NCBI RefSeq assembly: GCF_000565075.1 | Contig: NZ_JDFG01000012.1 | Location: forward strand, 124,001-188,000 | Reading direction: 5' to 3' | Length of the DNA stretch: 64,000 nucleotides | Source of the DNA: Atopobium sp. BS2 | GTDB taxonomy: Bacteria > Actinomycetota > Coriobacteriia > Coriobacteriales > Atopobiaceae | Shown: positions 44,995-46,883 of the stretch, piece after piece | Layout: each line of letters starts with the position of its first letter | Position numbering within the stretch: position 1 is the first letter of the stretch | Notes under the pieces: model-generated | Databases searched by the model: none | Seen by the model: only the letters and a program-made list of their open reading frames with translations | Told to the model about the DNA's origin: nothing | Translations under genes and position numbers: made by a program

Positions 44995-45111
44995 ACGCAC
45001 CTCCAATCACAAGTTAAATTACTATAGTTATATACTACGAGGTTAATAGACAGTATTACAATCTTTAGTAACAAATAAACTGCTCTTGTTGTCCATAGGG
45101 AGGCAACAGAT

Positions 45112-45393
45112 ATGTTTGGCGAGAAGATATTTAATTTTTCAGAACCGATTTCTAGAAAAACAGTTCGTATTGTAATATTAGTCAGTTTTCTGGCTTATCA
45201 GGGAATGCGGCTACTGTGGAAACAGGGACTTATTCCACCATTACTATTTTTTCTAGTATTAATTCTGACTGAGGTTATCGATTTTTATGTCTTTTTTAAA
45301 AGCGGTATCAAAAAATGGGTAAGAATTTTGTTCTTAGTTTTCCTCATACTTGCGCTTATATTTGAGATCAGCCACATCATTTATTTTCTTTAA
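45112..45393 (+). CDS. Small membrane protein, unknown function
   Basis: 93 residues, one of few plus-strand genes. GGGAGG lies eight bases before the ATG. Three hydrophobic helices (about 20-38, 42-60 and 70-92) separated by short basic turns (RLLWK, KSGIKKWVR). I do not recognise a family. The second to fourth codons are a copy of the dispersed motif (GGCGAGAAG). Ends in a palindrome-rich non-coding element. Confidence 0.65.
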   Translation: MFGEKIFNFSEPISRKTVRIVILVSFLAYQGMRLLWKQGLIPPLLFFLVLILTEVIDFYVFFKSGIKKWVRILFLVFLILALIFEISHIIYFL

Positions 45394-45463
45394 CCGGTGA
45401 ATAAAACCCTCTTCTGTGAACTGCCTCCCATTTCTTGGACACGAGAAATAGGAGGCAATTCAA

Positions 45464-45594
45464 AACACACCTAAGTCGGATAATCTGTTAAAAAGACGTA
45501 TACATGACGCAGAAATTACCACAAACATGCAGATTATCGTCATTAGATGTGTAAAATGCCCACATTTGAGCAGAATATCCGACTTAGGTGTGTT
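45464..45594. repeat. 24-bp inverted repeat pair (one mismatch)
   Basis: Left arm 45464-45487 and right arm 45571-45594 match in 23 of 24 positions as reverse complements (core CACACCTAAGTCGGATA), 83 bp apart. The inner nine bases of the left arm (GATAATCTG, 45479-45487) can also pair with CAGATTATC at 45530-45538, giving two exclusive folds. Confidence 0.8.
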
Positions 45595-45777
45595 CTGTAG
45601 ATGCAGAATTCATCTATAGTTAAATTTCTTATATTTCTCTATTCATGTTTAAGCATATTAGATGAAGTTTATGCATAGATATGCATATCAGGTAGTGTGA
45701 CCACCTAGCTGCCTGGCTATCTTGATTAATAACATGTCGATTCTTCGGCAGAACCTACCAAAGCTGCGCTATTTTGT

Positions 45778-45800
45778 GCGCCAGGCCTAAAAGCCGGCGC
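45778..45800. repeat. GC-rich hairpin within the non-coding element
   Basis: GCGCC, bulged A, GGC, six-base loop, GCC, GGCGC. Stable stem of eight pairs; no T-run follows. Part of the element 45403-45859. Confidence 0.65.
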
Positions 45801-45887
45801 TAACACGCTGCAGAATCATAATCACCTGCATTTGAACTGCCTGCACAGAAGAGGGTTTTTCATATGCATTATATAAGGCTCACGTAA

Positions 45888-46883
45888 TTACTCAGTAGCA
45901 GATACTTCTTCTGAAGCCTGTACCTCACCGGCATCATTTTTCTTTGCAAGCTTCTTATCAAGCCAACCAGTAAATGCTGGAGCTACCAGTGCAGTAATAA
46001 CTACCGCGGCAGCAAGCTGAGCGTTTGCGTTTGCAACAACCTGGGCTGTATACGTTGGATCAACACTAGCAACCGCTGCAGGAGTGGTTGTTGCAGTACC
46101 AGCAATAGTCGCGCTTGCAAGACTTGCCTTACCAGAGCCACCAAGAAGACGCTCAACAAGCATGGTAAGAATACCCGTGATGATGCAAAGTACTGCTAGG
46201 AGAATACCTGATGGACCACCAATAATAAGGTTCTCAACACTCATGCCGCAACCAAGCGCAAAACCAACAACAGCAATGCAAGGGTTAATACCAGGAACCA
46301 AAAGTGCCCTGATAAAAGGACTAAGGTTACCAAGAACAACACCAAGGACTAGAGGAAGAAGGGTACCCGCAAGTGCGGTTGGAGAAATTGCTGCAACGCC
46401 TGCTGCACCAAGAGCAATCATGGTAACTGCTGGACCTGCAACAAGAGACAAAACTGCAGCCGCGCCTTGCTCATCAGGAGTTCCGTACTCAGCAGTAATA
46501 CCAATGTACAGAGCAACATTACAGAAGGTAATGCCGCCAATAATGGAAAGAGCATTAAGACCAAAGAAATTATCGTTCATGAATTTTGCAACAAAGAGAC
46601 CAAAGGCAATGGCAATAGCAAGCTTAGGGATAAGAATAGTCAGGCCAGTCTTCAGAACCTTTGGAACAGTCTTCAGATCAATGGAGGCGCCAACAAACAG
46701 CAGAACAATACCAACAATCGCAGGAGCACCCTTAGCAACAGCTGTAGTAAAACTACCAATTTCTAGAACCTGAGGGAAAAAAGAGTGGAGTAGTAGGCCC
46801 ACAGAAAGTGGATACAGCATAATATCGCCGGGAAACCTGGGAACGCCAATTTTACGAGTTGCTTTTTGCTGTTCAGCTGCCAT
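45888..46883 (-). CDS. kdgT: 2-keto-3-deoxygluconate permease
   Basis: 331 residues, KDGT family (about ten membrane helices). KIGVPRFPGDIMLYPLSVGLLLHSFFPQVLEIGSFTTAVAKGAPAIVGIVLLFVGASID is diagnostic; GGSGKASLASATIAGTATTTPAAVASVDPTY near residue 250 is also conserved. Imports 2-keto-3-deoxygluconate or a related sugar acid. No kdgK or kdgA is beside it, so the catabolic genes must lie elsewhere, or the substrate differs. Polar C-terminus. Confidence 0.88.
   Translation of the reverse strand: MAAEQQKATRKIGVPRFPGDIMLYPLSVGLLLHSFFPQVLEIGSFTTAVAKGAPAIVGIVLLFVGASIDLKTVPKVLKTGLTILIPKLAIAIAFGLFVAKFMNDNFFGLNALSIIGGITFCNVALYIGITAEYGTPDEQGAAAVLSLVAGPAVTMIALGAAGVAAISPTALAGTLLPLVLGVVLGNLSPFIRALLVPGINPCIAVVGFALGCGMSVENLIIGGPSGILLAVLCIITGILTMLVERLLGGSGKASLASATIAGTATTTPAAVASVDPTYTAQVVANANAQLAAAVVITALVAPAFTGWLDKKLAKKNDAGEVQASEEVSATE

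Follow-up and report, generated by a model that had tools for sequence, protein, structure and literature searches.

An IS3-associated, MITE-like element of Atopobium carries a conserved array of predicted protein-binding sites

The DNA analysed is a stretch of 64,000 nucleotides (the window) from contig NZ_JDFG01000012.1 of Atopobium sp. BS2, whose genome of ~1.6 Mb is denoted G000. The element under study lies between two genes that an earlier note on the window had described as convergent, and the strands of the ORFs on each side bear this out. The left neighbour is a hydrophobic 93-aa ORF with no match in Pfam or NCBIfam, and the right neighbour is a KdgT permease; used as query against GTDB contigs, the permease returned no relatives. 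We note that ~330 bp at window positions 45068-45400, including the 93-aa ORF, are missing from the orthologous locus of A. parvulum, and that this segment is bordered by short TCTTTA repeats. The features of the locus are as follows.

45112-45393, + strand: left neighbour, hydrophobic 93-aa ORF
45403-45416, no strand: predicted host bidirectional intrinsic terminator, left arm, AAAACCCTCTTCTG; from the unbroken A. parvulum hairpin and the 14-bp arm match
45417-45462, + strand: left terminal 46-bp palindrome, the true left end, TGAACTGCCTCCCATTTCTTGGACA...; equals the left end of an IS3-family IS
45465-45487, + strand: 23-bp site 1, ACACACCTAAGTCGGATAATCTG; from the motif scan, kept across paralogs and orthologs
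45530-45552, - strand: 23-bp site 2, ACACATCTAATGACGATAATCTG; from the motif scan, with the same conserved positions though site 1 does not pair with it
45571-45593, - strand: 23-bp site 3, ACACACCTAAGTCGGATATTCTG; from the motif scan, its stem with site 1 covarying
45594-45690, no strand: AT-rich module of the resident element, TAGTTAAATTTNTTATAT...TATTCAT...TTTATGCATA; common to the stand-alone copies (alignments A1 and A2)
45691-45832, no strand: extension with small hairpins; in mobile copies and at three stand-alone loci
45833-45842, - strand: remnant of the right terminal palindrome, TGAACTGCCT; from comparison with two-palindrome copies, e.g. L002, L003, L004, L034 and L047
45846-45859, no strand: predicted host terminator, right arm, CAGAAGAGGGTTTT; likewise from the unbroken A. 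parvulum hairpin
45888-46883, - strand: right neighbour, KdgT permease

Every repeat that the earlier note had described was found at its coordinates. There are perfect 16-bp arms at 45403-45418 and 45844-45859, a left hairpin with arms at 45417-45435 and 45444-45462, and an inner inverted repeat with 33-nt arms at 45461-45493 and 45565-45597 that are 88% complementary; an alternative pairing of 45465-45487 with 45530-45552 reaches 78%. The inner 132 nt fold with an energy of -48.4 kcal/mol, compared with -21.1 +/- 3.0 kcal/mol for shuffled sequences, giving z-scores of -9.0 for the plus strand and -8.0 for the minus strand. No plausible ORF of at least 60 aa lies between the convergent neighbours, in agreement with the claim that the element has no coding frame. 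The inverted repeats, and their ~30-fold recurrence in the genome, are far beyond chance. The limits of 457 bp (45403-45859) originally given to the element are slightly too wide; the element proper occupies approximately 45417-45842, and of the wider interval the first and last 14 bp belong to the host.

The basis for this is a comparison with Atopobium (Lancefieldella) parvulum IPP 1246T, a member of the same genus with a genome of 1,543,805 bp (PMC3035223). At the orthologous locus (G002:C1:518374-518396) the two flanks of the window run directly into each other, and an unbroken bidirectional terminator hairpin, AAAACCCTCTTCTACCTGTGCAGAAGAGGGGTTTT, is retained. Since the terminator is unbroken at this empty site, with arms that correspond to 45403-45416 and 45846-45859 in the window, the 16-bp repeats are to be read as the halves of the target; their assignment as the ends of a MITE was mistaken. 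Judged from this alignment they are the two arms of a predicted terminator common to both convergent genes, and not the ends of the element. The two extra matching bp of the repeats are the first TG of the element and the CA beside the right arm. A single MITE comprising the whole 457 bp, with the 16-bp repeats as its terminal inverted repeats (TIRs), would account for the perfection of those repeats, but other copies have their own, differing terminator arms at the same position, and the unbroken terminator at the empty site already refutes this reading, to which we give practically no weight.

Intact copies have differing outer flanks and identical ends, TGAACTGCCTCCCATTTCTTGGACA, each being a 46-bp palindrome. 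The consensus fold of the palindrome has an energy of -35.9 kcal/mol. In the window copy the left palindrome (45417-45462) folds at -26 kcal/mol, and ~36 bp of the right palindrome have been deleted. Exactly the same end is also the left end of a complete IS on contig C37 of G000 (L061 3199..1746), whose right end is TGAACTGCGTCCCAAAACTTGGACG. This has the features of the IS3 family, i.e. two ORFs, a transposase with rve and HTH_21 domains, a TIR beginning TGAACTG and a 3-bp target-site duplication (TSD), whereas the element studied here has no ORF and shares the end palindromes only. The protein encoded by ORFB is an IS3 transposase (NF033516, 7.2e-71, 239 bits over its 160-bit cut-off) with Pfam domains rve, rve_2 and HTH_21. 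The layout of the putative helper IS is IS150-like, the subgroup being our own reading. We note that at the left end of the IS (L061 3199-3150, minus strand) a hairpin encloses GGGAGG, which resembles a ribosome binding site and is directly before a possible start codon; such a hairpin could silence the transposase on transcription from outside. Solo 46-bp palindromes also exist (L076, and L069 in another genus), and from these the element could be a composite of two 46-bp mini-elements around a cargo.

There are ~30 copies of the element in G000 and two in A. parvulum, the number being approximate because the assembly breaks at many copies. They are mostly located in terminator loops. Seven insertions have both flanks, namely the window copy, L002, L003, L004, L034, L047 and the IS itself. 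Terminator arms are split by the insertion in five of these, with match scores of 9-14, where random positions in the window have a 99th percentile of 7. A 3-bp target duplication is present in six of the seven; the window copy is the exception, where truncation of the right palindrome leaves none to be read. L002 and L034 are one insertion common to both species, and this is at the foot of a terminator, not in the loop. Many single-flank copies at contig ends also adjoin an A-run and a G+C-rich arm, and in three cases two contig ends can be joined by matching terminator arms and TSD. In two other genera, copies of the IS split terminators too (L036 and L037; arms compared by eye). Targeting of the kind used by group IIC introns was considered and dropped for lack of support. 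No description of an IS3 element that targets terminator loops was found in the literature searched, from which subscription papers were largely absent, and no claim of novelty is made. The element was not found in phages, and among plasmid records only one, from Collinsella, gave a match, of 42 bp and to the IS end.

The suggestion that this is a MITE thus proves sound in kind. The element is ~426 bp long with no ORF of at least 60 aa; intact copies have the sequence TGAACTGCCTCCCATTTCTTGGACA at each outer end, as the C37 IS has at its left end; 3-bp duplications flank other members of the ~30 copies, and the window copy has its empty site in A. parvulum. Taken as a whole the element is very probably MITE-like and non-autonomous. 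From the shared ends and the length of the duplication we infer that the IS3 transposase would mobilise it in trans.

The sequence between the palindromes also occurs without them at other loci. This cargo contains three copies of a 23-bp motif, ACACAnCwAnnnnnGATAwTCTG, in the orientation + - -, and the inner 24-bp inverted repeat of the earlier note corresponds to two of the three. BLAST matches to the extension continue up to query position 421 in L018/L055, L075/L062 and L027/L063. An interpretation as two nested MITEs is unsupported as stated; the conserved sequence extends ~95 bp past the supposed inner terminus, and eight loci orthologous between two species have the inner element with no IS ends. 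The inner part would be a copy, captured by the mobile element, of an intergenic element that was resident earlier. A sequence that was single-copy and conserved in place in all relatives had been set against a mobile element: the whole element is repeated and does not fit this description, while the inner part, at other loci, is indeed conserved in place. At the three long-form stand-alone loci (L018, L062, L063, L075 and L027) the right edge adjoins an intrinsic terminator at its A/T run, and the orientation is the same each time. An ARG box, a DnaA box and a Xer/dif site were considered as readings of the AT-rich module, from resemblance alone, and were dropped as unsupported.

A scan of 140 genomes of the family gave 90 sites in G000, 31 in A. 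parvulum and 0-4 in the others, the last being about the number given by the reversed pattern. In GTDB contigs and IMG/VR there were scattered single matches to the 23-bp pattern, at about chance level. All 31 sites of A. parvulum belong to one of 11 clusters, among them those at 65, 96, 347, 412, 710 and 1517 kb; the mobile element accounts for two of the 11. Alignment of flanking genes provided an orthologous counterpart in G000 for eight of the nine stand-alone clusters, at the fusA-dxs, 96 kb, ettA, yebC-deoR, pfk-eno, adhE, galK and pknB-tRNA loci (gene names were read from the translations unless a family search was made). For the ninth cluster, at 72 kb, the expected G000 ortholog falls at an assembly gap. 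A further apparent repeat, GGTAAAAAATC..TTTAGTTGGGG, ..AAGTGGTGTAAG.., is located at the end of L180 (C24) and the start of L181 (C48), the contig break at which the 72-kb ortholog is expected.

Clusters contain from three to eight sites, and their orientation relative to neighbouring genes is mixed. The array at the galK locus (G000:C47, L115 649-975) has grown to eight sites with a spacing of ~42 bp; it appears to have been enlarged by tandem duplication of ~42-bp units, its A. parvulum ortholog (L113) having three clear sites. In three more distant members of the genus, where empty sites of the resident clusters were sought, other genes occupy the gap at the pfk-eno and pknB-tRNA loci. An extra flanking block, CGAGAAGATCCGATTTTCTCGC ... 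GATATTTATATAAAAG, is common to L111 (the A. parvulum 72-kb locus) and L018/L055, so that modules around the sites seem to have been shuffled between loci.

Change at the conserved positions of the sites is much rarer than elsewhere, in keeping with purifying selection. For orthologous pairs in the two species, conserved positions were defined on all other loci with the pair held out, which avoids circularity. Between the species the conserved positions of the sites differ in 6/252 cases (2.4%) and the variable positions in 35/162 (21.6%; p = 2e-10); the spacers and the AT module show the same trend, more weakly. Within 27 mobile copies 0.6% of cells at conserved site positions differ from the majority, compared with ~7% for the rest (p = 2e-17), and among singletons the counts are 2/941 and 61/7212 (p = 0.03), although these p-values are only indicative because the copies share ancestry and the cells are not independent. 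Departures in the mobile copies are approximately twelve times rarer at conserved site positions than elsewhere; the corresponding values are 7.5% for the spacers, 6.6% for the AT module, 5.2% for the extension and 3.3% for the left IS-end palindrome. Shared variants show the effect strongly and singletons modestly, so that the constraint may be exerted in part on copies where they lie and in part on which of them spread. For the mobile copies, some of it may come from a requirement for the sites in spreading rather than from their use in place.

The cargo might be read as DNA or as RNA. The stem formed by sites 1 and 3 covaries, with a score of 0.101 against 0.048 for shuffled alignments (none of 500 as high) and a maximum of 0.049 when slid. 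The pairing of sites 1 and 2 scores 0.032 against a shuffle mean of 0.026, with 113/500 shuffles as high; the switching RNA proposed from this alternative pairing is thus without support. The hint of selection on minus-strand RNA is weak. Over 13 copies, eight pairs are of the G-U type on the minus strand alone and three on the plus strand alone, a slight bias. A structured non-coding RNA transcribed from the AT-rich module, with a folded site 1-site 3 stem and with copies spread by the mobile element, would be consistent with the very stable fold, seen on both strands, with the covariation and with a flank that could hold a promoter. However, a DNA cruciform predicts the same covariation, which in inverted repeats can also arise by template-switch correction. 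An Rfam search gave no match near the gathering score, site 2, which does not pair with site 1 in the supported stem, keeps its conserved positions, and the motif persists in both orientations; duplex DNA fits this better than single-stranded RNA. The mixed orientation to neighbouring genes and the variation of the arrays from three to eight sites also count against an RNA, which we consider unlikely.

We judge it equally unlikely that the inner element is an old MITE, its sites being transposase-binding repeats and its resident copies dead remains. Repeats of this kind occur at the ends of Tn7-, Mu- or Tn552-like elements. The sites do point inwards from both sides (-> <- <-), the conserved sequence begins sharply at site 1, and the copies are dispersed and intergenic. 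Yet dead copies should decay evenly, and since the species split the conserved and variable positions have diverged by 2.4% and 21.6%. Moreover site 3 is not an end, with conserved sequence for ~95 bp beyond it; no transposase with such ends was found, a search for rve yielding two IS3-type elements and one partial match; and no clean empty site was found in three more distant members of the genus at the two loci examined.

The keeping of site 2 outside the supported stem and the occurrence of the motif in both orientations agree with what recognition as double-stranded DNA predicts. We somewhat favour a predicted array of protein-binding sites as the nature of the cargo, over RNA and over decayed transposon ends. 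The number of sites in G000 is approximately three times that in A. parvulum, and the sites are more intact than the element's own transposase ends. More tentatively, and at less than even confidence, the sites could be lineage-specific chromosomal landmarks that selection keeps at some nine intergenic loci, in clusters of at least three, and that a putative protein (an organiser, recombinase or regulator) reads in duplex form, one cluster having been captured and multiplied by the IS3-driven composite.

The events might be put together as follows. The IS3 transposase would act in trans on the 46-bp palindromic ends. Two 46-bp mini-elements would have come to bracket a copy of the older resident intergenic element, creating the composite. 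Its copies insert mostly into terminator loops with a 3-bp duplication, the window copy having split the terminator of the convergent genes. With each jump a further cluster of sites would be placed at a gene's 3' end, where the element's own hairpin could replace or supplement the broken terminator. Less certainly, a lineage-specific protein would bind the 23-bp sites as double-stranded DNA. As a joint statement, an IS3-mobilised MITE-like element with a captured site array as predicted protein-read DNA is in our view fairly probable, this grading being a compromise.

Bacterial MITEs are usually regarded as empty shells. The cargo here has been constrained since the two species split and within the mobile copies, so that a selfish element would be redistributing an apparently functional site array. 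The terminator-loop target suggests a route by which ~30 copies could be accommodated in a 1.6-Mb genome with little damage, because insertions fall between genes and bring with them a strong hairpin, the end palindrome. The 23-bp sites could be used directly as bait for the putative binding protein.

The element may be compared with two repeats of Streptococcus pneumoniae. RUP is 107 bp long with TIRs similar to those of IS630-Spn1, and is among the MITEs for which mobilisation in trans by an IS of the same genome has been proposed (PMC3049150). Like RUP, the element described here is short and gene-free, with many intergenic copies, ends common to a transposase-bearing IS and target duplications. 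It differs in having IS3-family ends as 46-bp palindromes, in inserting mostly into terminator loops and in carrying a constrained site array as cargo. BOX elements comprise boxA, a variable number of boxB and boxC (PMC3049150), and are similarly modular intergenic repeats with variable tandem sub-units, here the ~42-bp site units at three to eight per locus. The likeness to BOX is of layout alone, however, for the present element has a 23-bp motif in both orientations that is found at orthologous loci of two species within a narrow lineage.
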